NCBI GenBank assembly: GCA_905181985.1
Contig: CAJIZW010000064.1
Span: forward strand, 1 to 37,523
DNA length: 37,523 nt
Source of the DNA: an uncultured Paracoccaceae bacterium
Lineage (GTDB): Bacteria; Pseudomonadota; Alphaproteobacteria; Rhodobacterales; Rhodobacteraceae
Direction of reading: 5' to 3'
Shown piece after piece: positions 15,188-37,523 of this stretch (position 1 is its first letter; each line of letters starts with the position of its first letter). The position numbers and the translations under genes are program-made. Under the pieces are notes generated by a model that saw only the letters and a list, made by a program, of their open reading frames with translations, was not told the origin of the DNA and searched no databases.

Positions 15188-16759
15188 TTATTTTAAGTAC
15201 ATACTATCAAAAATAGTTACCGCAGAGTTTCCTGGATCCCAGTTAAGGTCTTCCCGAACTCCATAACTAACCACATTTCTCCAAAGATACATACCAGGGG
15301 TTATATCTTCCCATTCTGCTACAAGGTCTAAATAAGCTGCATTTCTAGAAGAAAAGTCTTGGGCTGCTGCAAATCTTTCACCAATTTCTAAGAATTTATC
15401 AGACGGGATCCAAGTTTTATGCTTAGCTCGAGTTCTACTAGAGAATGGTCCCCAATCTAACCATAATGGTCGGTAAGGGTCACCCGAAAACTCACTAGAC
15501 ATTGACATGTTTAGCATGTGAAATGGGCGTTTATACGCAAGGCCAAAATTATCCACAATCATCATGCGGACGTTAATTCCTATTTCTCGCCATTGCTCTA
15601 CCATAAATTCGGCAGCTACTTCATAGTTAGGATAAAAGCCTCTGGTAATATGCCAAATAAGTTCTTCACCATCATAGTTAGTTTTTGATAAAAACTCAGC
15701 AGCTCTCTTTGGATCATACGTATATACCGCTTTACGGTTAGGGTCATAGTAGTCACCATATTCTGGAAAATTAAAAGGAGCTGGCACATAAGTTGCATCA
15801 CCCCATAGAGCTTTTACGATCCCATCCCTATCAATTGCTGTGACCATCGCCTTACGCAAGTTAACATCCTTCAGAGGGTTGTTAGGTGTCTCTTCTGTAT
15901 CAAGGGTGTTAAAAGCAAACATAGGGTAATTTTCTATAGATTTCTCCATCACCTTAATACCGGCTGTTCCACTTACAGAAGCTACTTGGTCAGCAGGAAT
16001 ACTCACAATTACATCAAACTCTCCAGCTGCTAGGCCAGCATAACGTGTAGAAAATTCTGGAACTATCCTATATGTTAAGCTTGCTGCTGGCGCAGGGCCC
16101 TTCCAATAATCATCAAAAGCTATAGCAACAAGCTCAGCGGCTGAATCAAATGAAACTATTTTGTAAGGACCGGTGCCAATTGGTTTTTGACCAAACGCAT
16201 CGGTACCTACCTCATTATAATAATGTTTTGGTAGAACAAAACCTAACGGTGTTACCAAACGATATGCAAAACTTGGGTCTGGTGTAGCCGTTTCAATTTC
16301 AACCGTCAGCGGACCAGTAGCCTCAGATCTAACAATACCTGCTGCATACCTTTTTCCTCTTGGGGCCATTGGTTTCTTTGCCCATAAGCGTTCCTCAGAA
16401 ATTGAAAAGGCAACATCCTCTGCGTCCATTACGTGTCCATCGTGAAACTTCACACCTTCTCTTAAATGAAAAGTCCAGATTGTTGGCGTTGTTCTTTCCC
16501 AGCTAGTGGCTAACCATGGTACTAATTTGTTTCCATCTGGGTCTTCCCACCTATTTCTCCTTATTAATGTATCAAACACATTAGAGTGAACACGTGCCCC
16601 AGTGGTTGATATACCAATAACAGGGTCCATTGTTTTCCAAAGGTTATCAACAGCTATAACTAAATCAGGTCGCTCCTTGGCTGACAAAGAGATTGGCGAC
16701 ATAAATATTGTCCCAAACGCCAGTACTGTTGCAAGGAGTATTCGAACATTCGATTTCAT
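15188..16759 (-). CDS. Periplasmic substrate-binding protein of the dipeptide-type ABC importer (SBP family 5)
   Basis: A 523-residue solute-binding protein of the peptide/nickel family. It begins with a clear Sec signal peptide: positively charged start, hydrophobic core through about residue 20, and a likely cleavage after SLSA near residue 27. The mature protein has the family signature region (WKTMDPVIGIST, VHSNVFDTLIRR) and the VKFHDGHVMDAEDVAFS motif. The start ATG has AAAGGAAA 7 nt upstream. It is 53 bp downstream of the nitrilase gene and first in the importer set. Family 5 proteins bind peptides, sugars, opines or other compounds, so the ligand is open. Confidence 0.9.
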   Translation of the reverse strand: MKSNVRILLATVLAFGTIFMSPISLSAKERPDLVIAVDNLWKTMDPVIGISTTGARVHSNVFDTLIRRNRWEDPDGNKLVPWLATSWERTTPTIWTFHLREGVKFHDGHVMDAEDVAFSISEERLWAKKPMAPRGKRYAAGIVRSEATGPLTVEIETATPDPSFAYRLVTPLGFVLPKHYYNEVGTDAFGQKPIGTGPYKIVSFDSAAELVAIAFDDYWKGPAPAASLTYRIVPEFSTRYAGLAAGEFDVIVSIPADQVASVSGTAGIKVMEKSIENYPMFAFNTLDTEETPNNPLKDVNLRKAMVTAIDRDGIVKALWGDATYVPAPFNFPEYGDYYDPNRKAVYTYDPKRAAEFLSKTNYDGEELIWHITRGFYPNYEVAAEFMVEQWREIGINVRMMIVDNFGLAYKRPFHMLNMSMSSEFSGDPYRPLWLDWGPFSSRTRAKHKTWIPSDKFLEIGERFAAAQDFSSRNAAYLDLVAEWEDITPGMYLWRNVVSYGVREDLNWDPGNSAVTIFDSMYLK

Positions 16760-29141: not shown

Positions 29142-30047
29142 TTAAGATAAAATCTCACAAACTTTATCAAGCTCTGACAGACTATTGTATGATATAGTAA
29201 CTACTCCAACACCCGACGATGCTTTATGTTCTATTGTTACCTTAAGACCGGTGTTTAAACTTAACTGCTTTTCTAAATCTATTGTATCTGCAAGTTTTCT
29301 TTTATTATTCGTCTCCTTTAAGTTTAATCGCACACTTTTCTTTTTTGAACTTCCCCTTACTAACGCCTCTGTTTCCCGGACACTAAGGCCTAAATTCACT
29401 ATTTTTCTAGCGATTGAACTTGGGTTTTCTGTTGTAATAATTGCTCGCGCATGGCCAACCGACAGTGACCCATCTTGTATCCAATCGAGGACAAGGCCAG
29501 GCAACGTTAATAGCCTTAAAGCATTTGCAATATAACTCCTGCTCTTTCCTAGAGCTTGAGAAAGCTGCTCCTGACTTTGTGCAAATTTTTCTTGTAATTG
29601 CTGAAAACCTAAAGCTTCTTCAACTGGGTTCAAATCTGATCTTTGAATGTTCTCTATAATTGCAACCTCAAGAACCTCTAGATCAGTAAACTCTCCAACA
29701 ACAACTGGTACCTCGTGAAGTTGTGCCAGTTGTGCGGCTCTCCAGCGCCTCTCGCCTGCCACAATCTCGTATAAATCAGGAGCATCTGGGTCAGGCCTTA
29801 CTAGTATAGGTTGAAGAATTCCCTTAGATGCTATTGATACAGCCAGCTCCTCTAAAGGCTTTTTTGAGAATATTTTCCTAGGTTGGTTTTTATTGGGCTT
29901 GATTAACTCAATAGAAACCTGTTTTTTATTATCAGCTTTATCCGGACCTGAGCTCGAAAACTCTGCCGACAGTGCTGCGTTAGCCATTAATTCAGATAAG
30001 CCCCTTCCAAGAGCTCTCTTTGGCTTTAATTTCCCTAATTTTGTCAT
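29142..30047 (-). CDS. parB: Chromosome partitioning protein ParB
   Basis: Binds parS sites, uses CTP to slide and spread along DNA, and segregates the origin region with ParA. The 301-residue protein has an N-terminal ParA-contact segment (RALGRGLSELM, 11-21), the CTP-binding GERR motif (98-101) within IVAGERRWRAA, the ENIQRSDLNPVEEA segment, a helix-turn-helix about 150-190 (SQEQLSQALGKSRSYIANALRLL) and a C-terminal dimerisation domain. The start ATG has AGGAG 8 nt upstream, overlapping the spacer after the parA stop. It is last in the rho-to-parB operon. Two perfect parS sites lie upstream in the same operon. Confidence 0.97.
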   Translation of the reverse strand: MTKLGKLKPKRALGRGLSELMANAALSAEFSSSGPDKADNKKQVSIELIKPNKNQPRKIFSKKPLEELAVSIASKGILQPILVRPDPDAPDLYEIVAGERRWRAAQLAQLHEVPVVVGEFTDLEVLEVAIIENIQRSDLNPVEEALGFQQLQEKFAQSQEQLSQALGKSRSYIANALRLLTLPGLVLDWIQDGSLSVGHARAIITTENPSSIARKIVNLGLSVRETEALVRGSSKKKSVRLNLKETNNKRKLADTIDLEKQLSLNTGLKVTIEHKASSGVGVVTISYNSLSELDKVCEILS

Positions 30048-30057
30048 TTATCCACTC

Positions 30058-30849
30058 CTAGTTAACGTCATGTCTTGCTAAAATCTCTAATGCTAACGCT
30101 TTATAAGCAGATGCACCTTTAGATCTTGGTGAGTAATCAAAAATAGACTTTCCATATGATGGAGCCTCACTTAGCTTTACACTCCTTGGTATAACAGACT
30201 GATAAACAAGTCCCTTAAGGTTGTCTCGAACATCATCTTCAACCTGCCGACTAAGGTTATTCCTTTTATCAAACATTGTTAAGACAATTCCTTCAAACCT
30301 TAAGCCTGGGTTTGCTGTATCTCTAATTTCCTTAACGGACAACATAAGTTGGGAAAGCCCTTCAAGTGGAAGAAACTCAGCTTGGAGCGGAACAAGAACA
30401 GAGTCAGAGGCTACAAGAGCATTAATTGTTAAAAGGTTTAAAGAAGGCGGGCAATCAATTAATATATAGTCTAATTTGTTTTGACCAAAATCAATTGAAT
30501 TTATTTTATCTTTTAAAACAGTGACTTGATCAGATTTCTTCGATAAAATTAAGTCTGCTGAACTTAAGTCTACTGTTGCTGGTGCCAAAACGAGACCTTC
30601 AACACCCACCTTTACAAAAATAGAAAACAAATCACTATCACCCACCAAAAGGTCATACGTTGTTTTCAGCCTCTCTTGAGATTCCAACCCCAAAGCTGTT
30701 GAGGCATTCCCTTGTGGATCGAGATCTATGATACCAACGCTTTTTCCTTGCAAAGCCAAAGCAACACCCAAATTAATTGTCGTAGTGGTTTTCCCCACTC
30801 CTCCTTTTTGGTTTGTAACCGATATTACCCTTGGCCGCCTATACGTCAT
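30058..30849 (-). CDS. parA: Chromosome partitioning ATPase ParA (Soj)
   Basis: A deviant-Walker ATPase that binds DNA non-specifically when ATP-bound and drives ParB-parS complexes toward the opposite cell pole. Visible are the deviant Walker A QKGGVGKTTT (14-23, with signature lysine 15), GIIDLDPQGNAS (Walker A' region) and YILIDCPPSL (Walker B). The 263-residue length is standard for chromosomal ParA. Its ATG lies 1 bp after the rsmG stop codon. Confidence 0.97.
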   Translation of the reverse strand: MTYRRPRVISVTNQKGGVGKTTTTINLGVALALQGKSVGIIDLDPQGNASTALGLESQERLKTTYDLLVGDSDLFSIFVKVGVEGLVLAPATVDLSSADLILSKKSDQVTVLKDKINSIDFGQNKLDYILIDCPPSLNLLTINALVASDSVLVPLQAEFLPLEGLSQLMLSVKEIRDTANPGLRFEGIVLTMFDKRNNLSRQVEDDVRDNLKGLVYQSVIPRSVKLSEAPSYGKSIFDYSPRSKGASAYKALALEILARHDVN

Positions 30850-30850
30850 A

Positions 30851-31462
30851 CTATCTTTTCTCCAAATCTGATATTATTAACATTGCCGACAATGGGTTAG
30901 TGACGCTCTCTTTTATTTTAATGCTAAAACTCCAGCACTCAAGCGCTTCTTTAATTTCTTCTTTATAACTTTCGCCCTTTAAAAAAACACAAAACCCTCC
31001 TTTTTTTAAATGTCTATTTGAAAAAAATAAAAGTTTTTTCAATGGGGCCAATGCTCTAGCTGTAATTACATCGGAATTCATTTCAACGATATTTTCTACC
31101 CGATCTGACCAAACAGCCGAATTTAAACCAAGAACCCTTACTGTATCTCTTAAAAACACAGCTTTCCTTTGATCCGACTCTACCATTTCTACTTTCATTA
31201 GTGGGAGTTTTTCAGTGGCAACAATTGCCAATACCATTCCCGGAAAGCCAGCTCCAGAACCAAAATCTAAAAGTTTAGTTTGCCCTGTAGTAAGGGTTGA
31301 AAAAACCTGTGCAGAGTCCAAAAAGTGTCGACTCCAAATATCATCTGTACTTTTTTTTGAAATGAGGTTTATTTTTTTGTTCCACAGGAGAAGTCTCTCC
31401 TTGTAGGTCTCCAACTTATGAAATGTTTCACGTGAAACATCTAAATTATTCCAAAAATCCAA
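30851..31462 (-). CDS. rsmG: 16S rRNA (guanine-527-N7)-methyltransferase RsmG (GidB)
   Basis: Methylates G527 of 16S rRNA using SAM; loss gives low-level streptomycin resistance in several bacteria. The 203-residue protein has SRHFLDSAQV (44-53) and the SAM-binding LDFGSGAGFPG (65-75). Codons 8-13 (DVSRET) are encoded by a perfect parS palindrome, a feature also found at this gene in other bacteria. It lies between mnmG and parA in the origin-proximal operon. Confidence 0.96.
   Translation of the reverse strand: MDFWNNLDVSRETFHKLETYKERLLLWNKKINLISKKSTDDIWSRHFLDSAQVFSTLTTGQTKLLDFGSGAGFPGMVLAIVATEKLPLMKVEMVESDQRKAVFLRDTVRVLGLNSAVWSDRVENIVEMNSDVITARALAPLKKLLFFSNRHLKKGGFCVFLKGESYKEEIKEALECWSFSIKIKESVTNPLSAMLIISDLEKR
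31424..31439. promoter_or_regulatory. parS centromere site in the 5' end of rsmG
   Basis: The perfect 16-bp palindrome TGTTTCACGTGAAACA, the classical chromosomal parS, lies within codons 8-13 of rsmG. The flanking bases extend the dyad to 18 bp (31423-31440). It should load ParB, encoded about 1.4 kb downstream. Confidence 0.96.
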
Positions 31463-31481: not shown

Positions 31482-33350
31482 TCAAGAAGCTTTCTTTATC
31501 CTAAGATTTGCAAGAATTAACGTGAGTGCTGCTGGTGTTATCCCATCTATCCTTGACGCTTGTCCTATATTCTCTGGCCGAGACATTGACAATTTTTGGG
31601 TCAATTCGTTAGAAAGCCCTGAAATATTATAATAGTCAAAATCTAAAGGAAGAACTACGCGCTCATCCCGTTTAAGGAGCTCTGCATCGCGCAGCTGTCT
31701 GCCGACGTAATTTGAGTACAAAGCATCTCGCTCTACCTGCTCTTTACACTCAGAGCTAATCTCAGAAAGCTCGGGTAGTGCCGTTAAAAAATAATCTACT
31801 TTTACATCAGGAAACGCTAACAACTCCATCATAGTCCTACGCTTTCCATCTTTTTTAACTTTTATATTATATTTACTAGCCTCTTGCGGACTCAGGTGGT
31901 GTTTACTTAACAATCGTTTGGCGTGACTTAGGCTTTCCATCTTCTCCCTAAACACCTTTTTTCTATCCTCTCCAACGCACCCCAATTTAAGACCATATTC
32001 AGTCAAACGTTGGTCAGCGTTGTCCGCTCGCAATGAAAGCCTAAACTCCGCCCTTGATGTAAACATTCTATAGGGCTCTTCTACCCCGCGTGTTACTAAA
32101 TCGTCTATCATTACTCCAATGTAAGAGCTTGAGCGTGTAAACTCGACCAAATCAAGGTCACGAACTTTGTTGGCTGCATTGAGACCAGCGACCAAACCTT
32201 GGGCTGCTGCCTCTTCGTATCCTGTTGTCCCATTAATTTGACCAGCCAAATATAAACCATGAACATTCTTTAGCTCCAAACTTTTCTTTAAAGCACGCGG
32301 ATCAACGTAATCGTACTCTATTGCATACCCTGGTTGTATTATACGCGCTCCCTCAAGTCCAACTATTGACTTTACATATCTATCCTGGACACTTTCCGGA
32401 AGAGATGTCGAAATTCCATTTGGATATACTGTATGGTCATTTAAACCTTCTGGTTCAAGAAAAATTTGATGTTCGTTCTTGTCTGGGAAACGTACAACCT
32501 TATCCTCAATTGACGGGCAGTATCTAGGGCCGATGCTATCAATTTTCCCACCATAAATCGCTGATTTATCTAGATTTTCTCTAATTATATCGTGTGTCTT
32601 GTTGTTTGTGTGCGTTACCCCACAAGAGACTTGCCTTAAAGAAGGTTGCTTTGATAAAAAGGAAAACATGCTAGGGTCACTATCGCCAGGCTGAGATTCT
32701 AACACTGACCAATTTATAGTTCGCCCATCCAGTCGGGGCGGTGTGCCCGTTTTAAGTCGTCCAAGCGGAAGCTGGAAGGTTTCCATGCGCTCTGCAAGTG
32801 TAATAGAGGGCTGGTCACCAAAGCGACCACCAGAAGTTTTTTGTTCACCGACATGCATAACACCTCTTAGAAAAGTTCCAGTTGTTAAAATAACAGCTTT
32901 ACTCTTGATAATAGACCCATCTTTCAGCTTAACCCCTAGAACAGTGTCCTTACTCACACAGAAGTCTGCAACTTCGCCCTCTAAAACTGAAAGGTTTTTT
33001 TGAAAATTAAGAAGTTTTTGAACACTAAGCCGATAAACATTTCGATCAGCTTGTGCCCTAGGACCCTGTACTGCTGGTCCCTTACCTCTGTTTAAGAGTC
33101 GAAATTGTATTCCAGCCTGGTCTGCAGCAAGCCCCATTATTCCACCCATAGAATCAATTTCTCTAACCAGGTGTCCCTTCCCAAGGCCACCTATAGCTGG
33201 ATTACAAGACATAACACCAATCGTCTCTACTTTATGAGTAATTAGAAGGACCTGAACTCCCATGCGCGCCGCAGCATGCGCTGCTTCCGCACCCGCGTGA
33301 CCCCCGCCAACAACTATTACATCAAACTGTTCTTGTTTCACGTGAAACAT
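31482..33350 (-). CDS. mnmG: tRNA uridine 5-carboxymethylaminomethyl modification enzyme MnmG (GidA)
   Basis: FAD-dependent partner of MnmE that modifies the wobble uridine of several tRNAs. The 622-residue sequence carries [19 protein letters not shown] (13-31), the [20 protein letters not shown] motif, [15 protein letters not shown] and [10 protein letters not shown], all diagnostic. A perfect parS palindrome encodes its first six codons (MFHVKQ). The ribosome-binding sequence AGGAG ends one base before the ATG, because the mnmE stop TAG is inside it; this is unusually close. An alternative downstream start would remove part of the FAD motif, so I keep this one. Confidence 0.97.
33334..33349. 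promoter_or_regulatory. parS centromere site at the start codon of mnmG
   Basis: A second perfect TGTTTCACGTGAAACA, overlapping the mnmG start codon and codons 2-6. It is 1.9 kb from the other parS and about 3.3 kb from the candidate origin, which fits the usual origin-proximal centromere cluster. Confidence 0.96.
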
Positions 33351-33354
33351 TCTC

Positions 33355-34635
33355 CTATTTACCTAGACAAAAATTCGAAAATATTTCGTCTAATAAATCC
33401 TCTACACCAACGCTACCCACCATACTTTCTAGGGCCATAACACTAGACCGCAACTCTTCTGCAGCAATCTCTGAACGAACTACGTCCCTTTGTAACTCTT
33501 TTTTACAATTTTTTAAAGTGCCAACAGAGATTATCATTGCTCTTCTGTGTCTCTCGTTTGTTGCTATTCCAGCTCCCAACGCCATCTTTGTTAATTTTTC
33601 TGATACTAAATCAATGAGTTCTGGTATTCCGTAACCCGTTAACCCTGAAACACCTACACCAGAAAGGTCACCCTTTGACGCAATTTCTATATCTAACTCT
33701 TGTTTAACAATAAACTCTTTGAGGGGTTTTTCTTCCGTTAAGAAAATTCGCAAGTCTGCAGTTTCAGCGCGATCTCGTGCCCTCTTAATACCAAGGATCT
33801 CGACCTCATTTTTTGTTTCTCTTAGACCTGCGGTATCCAAAAAAGTAACTGGTAATCCATTTAAGTCCATACGAACCTCAATTACATCCCGTGTAGTCCC
33901 TGCGATTTTTGATGTTATAGCTGCTTCTCGACCTGCTAAGGCATTAATGAGAGTTGATTTGCCAACGTTTGGGGCGCCTATAATTGCTACCTCAAACCCT
34001 GATCTAACTCTTTCTGATAATTTAGTTGACTCAATCTCTTTTTCTAATTCCATGATAATTTTTGTTACTAGCTCTGATACTCTTCCAAGAAGCCCTAGTG
34101 GTATGTCTTCTTCGGAAAAATCTATTGTAACCTCAATAAGAGACCCGGCCTCTATTAAGGAGGCACGCCACTCTTTTACTTTTCTTCCAATAGAGCCGTC
34201 GAAAACCCTTACTGCTTGCTTCCTCTGCGCTTCTGTCTCTGAATTGATAAGGTCTGCCAAACCCTCTATTTGAGTAATATCTAAGCGATTGTTCTCTAGC
34301 GCGCGACGAGTAAACTCACCTGGCATCGCTTCTCTATGGTTGGTCTGTAAATTGAGTTCGCCTAATAGTTTACTTATTACAGCTATACTGCCGTGCAAAT
34401 GATACTCAACGACGGTCTCCCCAGTAAAGCTTGCACCTGCTTCAAAAAACAAAATTAACGCTCTATCAATTAGTTCGCCATTTTGATCTTTAAGCCTCCT
34501 TAACGCTGGCTGACCTATACACGGTTTAAACCCAGCTATCTTTTTACAAGAATCTGCCGCTGCTTTTCCCGAAACACGGATAACAGATATACCCGCCTTA
34601 CCGTAGGCTGTTGATAAAGAAAAAATTGTGTCCAT
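33355..34635 (-). CDS. mnmE: tRNA modification GTPase MnmE (TrmE)
   Basis: GTPase that works with MnmG on wobble uridine modification, using formyl-tetrahydrofolate. The 426-residue protein has an N-terminal folate domain (1-116), a helical domain with an inserted G domain, G1 GAPNVGKST (220-228), G2 IAGTTRD (244-250), G3 DTAG (267-270), and the conserved C-terminal FCLGK with Cys423. The G4 position reads SKGD (320-323) rather than NKxD. It lies 4 bp upstream of mnmG and 23 bp after rho. Confidence 0.97.
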
Positions 34636-34658: not shown

Positions 34659-35930
34659 TTAAGTATTCATTGAGTCAAAAAATTCAGTATTATTCTTTGT
34701 TTGTTTTAACTTTCCTATTAAAAACTCTATCGCATCAGTGGTGCCCATAGGGTTTAAAATTCTTCTGAGAACGAACGTTTTTTGTAAATCACCTTTGCTT
34801 ACTAGTAGCTCTTCTTTTCTGGTGCCTGACTTTAAAATATCCATAGATGGATAGACACGCTTATCAGCAACTTTTCTATCTAGAACTATTTCTGAGTTAC
34901 CTGTTCCTTTAAACTCCTCAAAAATAACTTCATCCATACGAGAGCCAGTATCTATCAGTGCGGTAGCAATTATAGTAAGTGATCCCCCTTCTTCGATGTT
35001 TCGAGCAGCACCAAAAAATCTTTTTGGCCTTTGCAAAGCATTTGCATCTACACCACCAGTTAAAACTTTTCCCGATGAAGGAACAACTGTGTTAAAGGCC
35101 CTTCCTAGACGAGTTATTGAATCTAGAAGTATGACGACGTCTCTTTTATGTTCTACAAGCCTTTTAGCTTTTTCTATAACCATTTCTGACACACCAACGT
35201 GTCTGGTTGCCGGCTCATCAAAAGTAGAGCTTACAACCTCCCCTTTTACAGATCTTTGCATATCTGTAACTTCCTCTGGCCTCTCATCAACAAGTAAAAC
35301 TATTAAAAAACACTCAGGGTGATTTTTTTCAATTGAATTCGCTATGTTTTGAAGCAAAACTGTTTTACCAGTCCTAGGTGGTGCTACAATTAAGCACCTT
35401 TGACCTTTCCCTATAGGGGCTACTAAGTCTATAATTCTAGCAGACCGGTCTTTAATTGTAGGGTCTTCTACTTCCATTATTAAACGTTCATCCGGGTATA
35501 ACGGTGTCAAGTTATCAAAACTAACTTTATGTCGAGACTTTTCAGGCTCTTCAAAATTGATTCTTGTTACCTCTGTCACTGTAAAGTATTTTTCATTCTC
35601 AACTGGGGAGCACATAACTCCCTCAACAGTGTCACCTGTCCTCAAAGAAAAGTTTCTGATCATATCGGGTGATAGATATATATCATCTGGGCCCGGTAAG
35701 TAATTTGCTTCTGGTGATCTTAAAAATCCGAAACCATCTTGTAAAACTTCCAGTACCCCATCACCAGAAATAACCCAACCATCCTCTGCTCTCTCTTTTA
35801 AAATAGAGAACATCAAGTCGCCTTTTCTCATCGTGGATGCATTTTCTATTTCTAAATCTTTTGCCATACTGACAAGATCCGCAGGCGTATGTTTTTTTAG
35901 CTCAACAAGGTTAAGACTGTTATCAGCCAT
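34659..35930 (-). CDS. rho: Transcription termination factor Rho
   Basis: Hexameric RNA helicase that ends transcription at Rho-dependent sites. The 423-residue sequence has an N-terminal helical domain (about 8-48), a cold-shock-like RNA-binding domain (about 52-125, [21 protein letters not shown]), Walker [12 protein letters not shown] (183-193), [31 protein letters not shown] and the R-loop region [20 protein letters not shown]. It is first in the rho-mnmE-mnmG-rsmG-parA-parB run and 98 bp downstream of hemJ. I see no convincing promoter or autoregulatory structure in that gap. Confidence 0.97.
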
Positions 35931-36028
35931 AGGGTTTATCCTTTTGTGAAAGTTTTTTTTGATAATATACTAACCGGACGGTAGTATTTTTCGTGTTACT
36001 TCTATTTTAAAGCTAAGTCAATTTTTCT

Positions 36029-36481
36029 TTAGAACGGCTTTATAATAACACTCAAAACTATTATAATTAATAGTATAGTCGGAACCTCATTCAAAATTCT
36101 AAAATAGCGACCGGTTTTAACATTATTAAAGTTTAGAAAGTTTTTATAAGTAATACTTAAATAAAAATGATAATAAGTGAGTGCTCCTAAGGATACTAAT
36201 TTAACCCAGGGCCAATACAAACTCCAATCTACTATACCAGGAGTAAGACCTAACAAAACACCAAATAACCATGAGGAAACCATCGCTGGTCTCATTATAT
36301 AACGTAATAAATTCATTTCCATAGTTAAGAATGTATTATACTGATCAGATTTTATTTTTGAGGATTCAACGTGGTAAACAAATAATCGTGGTAAATAAAA
36401 AAGGCCAACCATCCAACAAATAACAGATATAATATGAGCAGACTTAATCCATAAATAATACTCTATTAGAGTAGTGCTCAT
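36029..36481 (-). CDS. hemJ: Protoporphyrinogen IX oxidase HemJ (UPF0093 membrane protein)
   Basis: Membrane enzyme that oxidises protoporphyrinogen IX to protoporphyrin IX in heme synthesis. About 150 residues with four hydrophobic segments (roughly 9-28, 58-80, 84-105 and 126-148). The first helix holds WIKSAHIISVICWMVGLFYL followed by PRLFVYH, the diagnostic HemJ block with the conserved His. The second conserved region is MEMNLLRYIMRPAM. The frame also allows a GTG start at 36490; I prefer the ATG at 36481. It lies on the left edge of the candidate origin and is transcribed away from it. Confidence 0.9.
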   Translation of the reverse strand: MSTTLIEYYLWIKSAHIISVICWMVGLFYLPRLFVYHVESSKIKSDQYNTFLTMEMNLLRYIMRPAMVSSWLFGVLLGLTPGIVDWSLYWPWVKLVSLGALTYYHFYLSITYKNFLNFNNVKTGRYFRILNEVPTILLIIIVLSVIIKPF

Positions 36482-36805
36482 TTTTTTCACTTTCTTTCTT
36501 AATATTACTTAATAAATATATTTATATATAAAAGATAGTAGTGGATGTTGGTATTGTGGATAAGAGGGATAAAACATTTATACACACACTTATCAAACAC
36601 ATATAAATGAAAAAATGACTATAGTGTAAGGTTAAAGACTTGATATGTTAAAAGTACTCAGAGCCTGTTAGTTAAAAATATGAACAATCTAAAAACTTAT
36701 TATAACTAAAAGACTATTGTGAATAACTACAAGCTTATTAAGCAGACACCGTGATCATCTTCTTTATACACAAATAAAACATTATTATTACTACAGGTTA
36801 TTAAC
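36482..36805. other. Candidate replication origin (oriC) between hemJ and maf
   Basis: A 324-bp non-coding region containing four matches to the DnaA box TTATNCACA: TTATCCACA on the minus strand (36555-36563), TTATACACA on plus (36578-36586), TTATTCACA on minus (36718-36726) and TTATACACA on plus (36764-36772). An AT-rich tract at about 36495-36540 is a plausible unwinding element. The flanking genes are divergent, and rho, mnmE-mnmG, parAB and two parS sites are within 8 kb, as near known alphaproteobacterial origins. No TTAA-N7-TTAA CtrA site and no GANTC methylation site was seen in the gap. Confidence 0.75.
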
Positions 36806-37408
36806 ATGAGCACAGATATCATATTAGCATCCGGCTCCCTTATTAGATCAAAATTATTACAAGATTCTGGTGTGGTTTTCCATGTAAAAAAACATAAAAT
36901 AGATGAAGAAGAGGAAAAAAAAACCTTAATTAAAAATAATATTGAACCAAAGAAGATATCGATCAATCTAGCAATTAAAAAGGCAATGGATGTTTCTAAA
37001 TCGTATAAAAATTCATTTATTATAGGCTGTGATCAAGCTCTTGTTTTTAATAACGTAGTTTTTTCTAAAGCAAAAAGCCCGGAAGAACTAAGACAACAGC
37101 TCCTACTACTTAAAGGAAAAAACCATAAGTTGTATTCGTCTTGTGCTGTTTTGTACCAAGAAAAAATAGTCTGGTCCTATACCGCAGAAATTGTTTTACT
37201 TATGAGGGATATAAATCAAAGAGAAATAAATACTTATGTTGATAAAAACTGGGAAAGAGTAAGAAATAGTGTTGGAGGTTATCTTATAGAATCAACTGGT
37301 AAGAGGTTATTTAAGACTATAAAAGGAGATTACTTTTCTGCTCTAGGTTTACCTATAATGGAGTTACTAGATTTTCTAATTTTAAAAAAAGTTGTAAACA
37401 TCGTTTAA
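36806..37408 (+). CDS. maf: Maf-family nucleotide pyrophosphatase
   Basis: Hydrolyses canonical or modified nucleoside triphosphates to monophosphates, and is linked to septum and division control in some bacteria. The 200-residue protein has the N-terminal substrate motif ILASGSLIRSKLL (6-18), the catalytic-Asp region IIGCDQALVF and the C-terminal GGYLIESTGKRLFKTIKGDYFSALGLP motif. Its start ATG lies 33 bp after the last DnaA box and has only a weak ribosome-binding sequence (CAGG about 9 nt away). It is 24 bp upstream of coaE. Confidence 0.92.
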   Translation: MSTDIILASGSLIRSKLLQDSGVVFHVKKHKIDEEEEKKTLIKNNIEPKKISINLAIKKAMDVSKSYKNSFIIGCDQALVFNNVVFSKAKSPEELRQQLLLLKGKNHKLYSSCAVLYQEKIVWSYTAEIVLLMRDINQREINTYVDKNWERVRNSVGGYLIESTGKRLFKTIKGDYFSALGLPIMELLDFLILKKVVNIV

Positions 37409-37432
37409 AAGAATAAGAAAGCTTTTTAATTT

Positions 37433-37523
37433 ATGGGAAAATTAATAAAAATAGGTCTAACTGGTTGTATAGGTATGGGTAAAAGCACGACTTTGAAAAT
37501 GTTTCAAAACGAGGGTGTTTCAA
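37433..37523 (+). CDS. coaE: Dephospho-CoA kinase CoaE, partial (5' end only)
   Basis: The window ends after 30 codons. The translated start includes the family P-loop GLTGCIGMGKST (residues 8-19), which is typical of CoaE, the last enzyme of coenzyme A synthesis. It lies 24 bp after maf on the same strand, and the maf-coaE pairing is the usual order beside alphaproteobacterial origins, often with aroE between them and dnaQ after. The rest lies beyond the window. Confidence 0.88.
   Translation, partial: MGKLIKIGLTGCIGMGKSTTLKMFQNEGVS

Follow-up and report, generated by a model that had tools for sequence, protein, structure and literature searches.

The 327-bp intergenic region between the divergent genes hemJ and maf is, on the evidence of its sequence and of the orthologous loci in relatives, almost certainly the chromosomal replication origin (oriC) of this uncultured Paracoccaceae bacterium. 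The initial annotation had proposed a compact candidate oriC between these two genes, and the proposal is supported by a cluster of DnaA boxes that is unique in the draft genome, by conservation, by a match to a family profile, and by GC skew in relatives. The window, that is, the whole stretch of 37,523 nucleotides analysed, is contig C64 of a draft genome (G000) of 1,702,895 bases in 140 contigs that is 78% complete. The genus is represented by four drafts (G000–G003, 74–97% complete). Two congeners, G001 and G002, carry the hemJ/maf locus, with HemJ 82% identical to that of the window, while the genus-level relative G003 gave no HemJ match and no maf match nearby, so that the origin region is unseen there. 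The region and its gene neighbourhood are laid out as follows.

29142-31462, minus strand: rsmG, parA (30058-30849) and parB (29142-30047)
31424-31439, unstranded: parS TGTTTCACGTGAAACA, exact 16-mer
31482-34635, minus strand: mnmE (33355-34635) and mnmG (31482-33350)
33334-33349, unstranded: parS TGTTTCACGTGAAACA, exact 16-mer
34659-35930, minus strand: rho
36029-36478, minus strand: hemJ (UPF0093/PF03653), flanking the region
36479-36805, unstranded: hemJ-maf intergenic region, the proposed oriC of 327 bp, set apart by its flanking genes, a TTATNCACA cluster unique in the draft and a skew switch at the orthologous locus of relatives
36806-37408, plus strand: maf (PF02545), flanking the region
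37434-37523, plus strand: apparent start of coaE (read by eye), cut by the contig end; in a congener, CoaE is encoded immediately downstream of maf

Four exact matches to TTATNCACA lie within 218 bp of the region, in the alternating orientation (minus, plus, minus, plus) originally described, and the flanking genes diverge as described, with hemJ on the minus strand from 36478 and maf on the plus strand from 36806. The elements of the region are listed here in order.

36490-36540, unstranded: weakest duplex of the window by duplex energy, candidate DNA unwinding element; both congeners have 36513-36532 unchanged
36515-36594, plus strand: stretch matching the family hemJ/maf origin profile (nhmmer E 0.005)
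36536-36541, plus strand: TAG TAG (two 3′-GAT-5′ repeats), candidate DnaA-trio separated from box 1 by 13 nt
36555-36563, minus strand: DnaA box 1, TTATCCACA, exact; unchanged in G001 and G002
36564-36572, minus strand: weak box-like word TTATCCCTC, differing from TTATCCACA at three positions and forming a tandem with box 1; both congeners retain the GGATAA core of this word, which aligns to TGTGGATTA of the family profile
36578-36586, plus strand: DnaA box 2, TTATACACA, exact; TTATRCACA in both congeners
36718-36726, minus strand: DnaA box 3, TTATTCACA, exact in the window; not conserved
36764-36772, plus strand: DnaA box 4, TTATACACA, exact; unchanged in both congeners
36798-36806, plus strand: TTATTAACA, one mismatch, overlapping the maf start; same in both congeners, and in some other family members a box such as TTATCCACA or TTTTCCACA is found there

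A chance cluster of DnaA-like words in AT-rich DNA is an explanation that must be weighed. The genome-wide density of boxes is in its favour, since the 59 exact TTATNCACA matches in the draft do not exceed the 63 matches to a reversed control pattern, and single boxes therefore mean little. Likewise, the window holds only five exact matches (the fifth at 15549) and is not enriched in matches with at most one mismatch (45 seen, 44.0 expected), so the signal resides in the cluster and not in the count. The hemJ/maf cluster is the only four-box cluster among the 59 exact matches; at the observed density, 4e-6 clusters of four within 218 bp are expected genome-wide, and when the intergenic region was dinucleotide-shuffled 2000 times, no shuffle reached four boxes (mean 0.05, maximum 2). 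Three of the four boxes are also conserved: boxes 1, 2 and 4 are exact in both G001 and G002, while box 3 has one mismatch in G002 and is degraded in G001. A chance origin of the cluster is consequently next to impossible.

The 20-bp AT tract TAAATATATTTATATATAAA (36513-36532) is identical in the window, G001 and G002, and a TAGTAG repeat lies between it and box 1 in both congeners. Duplex strength was computed from nearest-neighbour energies. Among all 30-bp and 50-bp stretches of the 37.5 kb, the weakest lie in the AT-rich tract noted earlier, where they start at 36500 and 36490, respectively, and adjoin box 1; at 100 bp, weaker duplexes occur at three places in the window, of which one overlaps at 36441. 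In the equivalent scan of contig G002:C2, the orthologous tract is second-weakest, with one other place weaker.

The order of elements resembles that of the Bacillus subtilis oriC. According to passages of PMC8287927, the basal unwinding system consists of a DnaA box, a spacer whose length peaks at 10–13 nt, and 3′-GAT-5′ repeats. The hemJ/maf region similarly has a DnaA box with a weaker tandem neighbour, a spacer of 10–13 nt, 3′-GAT-5′ repeats, and then the AT tract; unlike the B. subtilis system as set out in those passages, the window has only two clean trios (the congeners have three), and the likeness is one of sequence only. The congeners carry GAT-GAT-GAA 10 nt from box 1 on the AT side. 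A rule that, as we read it, asks for three or more NAN trios no farther than 16 nt from a DnaA box describes G001 and G002, while the window has two GAT trios followed by AGA. A search for DnaA-trios was rejected as evidence: it returned matches in 8 of 15 family-genome regions, four of which contain no GAT at all, and it returned nothing in the window. In AT-rich DNA such a pattern carries little weight as evidence, and the trio motif at box 1 is offered as a suggestion.

DnaA-ATP would bind boxes 1 and 2, with their weaker neighbours, and box 4 near maf, in a sequence of steps drawn from general knowledge of DnaA. A DnaA filament would then grow from box 1 leftward onto the strand bearing the TAG repeat, the weak AT tract at 36490-36540 would open, and the helicase would be loaded there. 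Two forks would depart, one through hemJ-rho-mnmEG-parAB and the other through maf-coaE, and ParB bound at the two parS sites 3–5 kb away would segregate the new origins.

The nearby parS and parAB of the initial annotation are indeed present: parB and parA occupy the positions listed above, and two exact copies of the 16-mer that we take to be the parS consensus start at 31424 and 33334. This parABS neighbourhood is also found in both congeners, each of which has two parS sites. The two sites are separated by 1910 bp, close to where the called rsmG and mnmG frames begin, and the same spacing of 1910 bp is seen in both congeners. Because parAB genes are nearby, it could be proposed that the region is the origin of a chromid or plasmid instead of the chromosome. 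This is highly improbable given the core-gene neighbours (rho, mnmE, mnmG, rsmG, mutS, hrcA, grpE), and given that the order maf-hemJ-rho-mnmG-parB recurs among the named loci listed. In G002, the order after maf is CoaE, an exonuclease-domain protein, and SecB, and this right flank has 89–90% identity to contigs C93 and C86 of the source draft. The dnaA gene (PF08299) was found in G002 and G003 and was not found in G001 or in the window's own 78%-complete draft.

A further explanation is that the boxes titrate DnaA or regulate a promoter between the divergent genes, the true origin being elsewhere. The location of the boxes between divergent genes and the box-like word over the maf start are compatible with such a role. 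GC skew bears directly on this question, and a skew minimum elsewhere in the chromosome had been named at the outset as the observation that would speak against an origin here. The window's contig ends 718 bp past the hemJ/maf region, leaving only the left side of the region in the window, so skew was tested on relatives; the switch falls at the hemJ/maf pair in all three (G002, G006 and G016).

For contig G002:C2 (146.5 kb), the third-position GC skew of 125 open frames was fitted with gene-strand and replichore terms. The three best switches fall before the frames at 87,656, 87,078 (maf) and 86,356 (hemJ), with residual sums of 182, 185 and 186, versus 375 without a switch; the best switches thus span 86.4–87.7 kb, and the hemJ/maf gap lies at 86.8–87.1 kb. 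Skew rises across the switch from −0.045 to +0.220 in plus frames (a shift of +0.27) and from −0.248 to −0.006 in minus frames (+0.24), and the window's left-side values (−0.084 and −0.212) resemble those of the left side in G002. The raw cumulative GC skew of G002:C2 was set aside; it has a broad low at 84–108 kb, lowest at 96–108 kb, 10–20 kb to the right, and the orientation-corrected third-position skew is sharper. In G006, a single-contig chromosome sampled in 40 stretches of about 20 kb, skew is negative in 16 of 19 stretches before the locus and positive in 16 of 21 after it, the stretch holding the locus (+0.002) being counted as before. The exceptions are five negative stretches after the locus and three positive ones before it, two of the latter at 3.28–3.34 Mb. 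The lasting sign change occurs at 3.46–3.48 Mb, with hemJ/maf at 3.4777 Mb. In G016, samples before the locus are negative in 10 of 10 cases and those after it positive in 9 of 10. Both G006 and G016 are closed chromosomes, and in each the sign of the sampled skew flips no more than about 20 kb from hemJ/maf. The skew switch in three relatives, the weakest duplex at the hemJ/maf region, and a core profile common to the family (below) make a titration site or promoter with the origin elsewhere very unlikely, and favour the hemJ/maf region as oriC.

The same arrangement is widespread among relatives. From at least 586 confirmed named HemJ loci, 80 were kept; the named relatives among the matches listed are mainly Rhodobacteraceae and allied Rhodobacterales, with some Rhodospirillales, Acetobacteraceae, and others. 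A maf match was present in 68 of the 80 named loci listed, and the 12 without one were left out of the synteny counts. The window has the family arrangement, in which a few hundred base pairs separate the divergent hemJ and maf, and rho, mnmG and parB lie beyond hemJ. The sequences inspected were the hemJ/maf regions of 12 further family genomes and the first 170 bases of the 68 named regions listed. By eye, most share a common order, in which the hemJ start is followed by an AT tract, a GATGATG-like repeat, a TGTGGAT-type box or a pair of them oriented towards the repeat, and further boxes; regions in which this order is not clear include L119, L153 and L169.

A profile was built from 71 hemJ/maf regions with the genus excluded, comprising 60 named loci among those listed and 11 other family regions. 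Eight of the 68 named regions were dropped (six of at least 540 bp, plus L103 and L169), as were four of 15 family-genome regions (the three of the genus, plus G027, which was taken as L104). The 71 regions are not all independent, as L130 and L141 represent different strains of a single species and further overlaps may exist. The consensus reproduces the order seen by eye. When both strands of the window, G002:C2 and G001:C6 (213 kb) were searched with this genus-free profile, its best match was at 36515-36594 of the window (E 0.005) and its second-best at the orthologous locus of G002 (E 0.048), the next being at E 7.4. The best match is modest, its composition bias term exceeding its score (18.6 versus 12.7 bits), and the profile gave no match below E 10 in the orthologous region of G001, which speaks against its sensitivity. 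The alignment places the main TGTGGATTA box of the family on the weak word at 36564-36572 and a box-like word just before it on box 1. Box 1 and the 36564-36572 word both align to box-like words of the family, and are thus a tandem pair.

In the relatives analysed, the divergent hemJ and maf are separated by about 400 bp, in which the AT tract, a GAT-rich repeat and a TGTGGAT box follow in that order. The genus differs from the 12 other family regions in its exact TTATNCACA boxes (three or four, versus none or one), in a shorter region of lower GC content (23–26%, versus 36–58%), and in its repeats (TAG, versus GATGATG). At the maf start, the window and both congeners share AGGTTATTAACATG (36795-36808) without any change, and a box-like word is present there in some other family members, e.g. 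TTATCCACATG in G030; a link between maf expression and DnaA is possible. One IHF match is present in the window region and none in the congeners, and no IHF site is claimed. Within 36000-37523, promoter-like sites are no more frequent than in shuffles and no terminator-like site was found, and no Rfam family was matched in the window.

The literature searched yielded no paper joining hemJ with oriC and, judged by titles and the openings of abstracts, none on the genus; DoriC entries for relatives may exist. In passages of PMC6699656, the chromosomal oriC of 101 Rhodobacteraceae strains was located with Ori-Finder. The hemJ/maf region is recognized by the same signs, namely skew, DnaA boxes and parAB; the flanking genes are unnamed in those passages. 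The corresponding parts of PMC1914354 place the origin in Caulobacter and Rickettsia between hemE and COG1806. Like the Caulobacter crescentus Cori described there, the hemJ/maf region combines DnaA boxes and an AT-rich tract within a few hundred base pairs, and it occupies the same place by synteny with G045, a member of another family that has hemE as well as COG1806 between hemJ and maf. Unlike Cori in that description, the window region lacks flanking hemE and COG1806, a CtrA-like site, and GANTC, and CtrA was not found in the genus.

The initial observation that hemE is not seen beside the region holds, in that neither hemE nor COG1806 flanks it, and the absence is not peculiar to this genome. 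Among the named loci listed with a maf match, hemE is no longer between hemJ and maf in 62 of 68 and is retained there in six (L103, L146, L154, L169, L171 and L173). In all 12 other family genomes, hemE is on another contig or lies 663 kb (G006) or 579 kb (G016) away. COG1806 (PF03618) was found in none of the seven family genomes searched and is present in G045; by eye, a COG1806-like protein is encoded in the hemJ/maf gap of L146, L154, L171 and L164. In the last of these (Rubricella aquisinus), a COG1806-like gene remains between maf and hemJ while hemE is gone, from which hemE may have left before COG1806. The region is very probably an ordinary origin at the ancestral site, in the same place as in its relatives. 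The sequences suggest an ancestral alphaproteobacterial origin that has lost hemE and COG1806 from its flanks: the origin stayed while its classical neighbours departed, with hemE alone having left in L164. Within the genus, hemE (PF01208) was not found in the G000, G001 and G002 drafts (78, 93 and 97% complete), which have HemJ; ferrochelatase is present in all four drafts, and G003 has hemE and no HemJ match. The missing hemE in three drafts is either a heme-synthesis gap or assembly loss.

The initial annotation also held that recognizable CtrA sites are absent and that this would imply simpler control than in Caulobacter. No TTAA-N7-TTAA match with at most one mismatch occurs in the window region (shuffle mean 3.1) or in that of G002 (3.4), and G001 has one, counted on both strands (4.5); GANTC is likewise absent from the window region. 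None of the four genus drafts has a CtrA match above the 350-bit cut-off of model NF045991 (at most 133 bits in G000–G003), versus genes of 418–434 bits in all four comparison genomes (G006, G016, G021 and G045). Family-wide, 138 of 149 genomes have a CtrA match at E 1e-75, 136 of them above the cut-off, and the 11 without a match include G000 and G002; for G009 and G011, in which 18 of 37 and 18 of 30 CtrA candidates, respectively, were scored, absence is uncertain. ChpT (PF10090) was found in none of the four genus genomes, versus four of four comparison genomes, while GcrA was found in all eight, including the four genus drafts. The lack of a CtrA-like site in the window region, together with the failure to find CtrA and ChpT in any of the four genus drafts, strengthens the suggestion of simpler control, and CtrA control is probably absent in the genus. 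It is conceivable, at somewhat less than even chances, that the genus lost CtrA and ChpT but kept GcrA, its origin being a pared-down form of the ancestral alphaproteobacterial origin that is licensed by DnaA without CtrA. The idea that the fuller set of boxes is tied to the loss of CtrA was dropped, as G032, which has no CtrA match, has a single exact box; AT-richness may explain the boxes instead. G032 is 97% complete, all nine of its CtrA candidates were scored without a match, and its hemJ/maf region is about 500 bp long.

These results place a replication origin for a genus seen here only as drafts. The hemE-based rule fails in this case, since the origin stayed and its neighbours left, and the hemJ/maf gap consequently offers a simple means of locating oriC from sequence alone in many relatives. 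The setting, probably one without CtrA, is what might interest a specialist in this locus. If the loss of CtrA is real, the genus would be a natural case of an alphaproteobacterial origin operating without its best-known repressor, and thereby a natural test of the contribution of CtrA at the origin, with G032 as a second case in which origins without CtrA could be studied.
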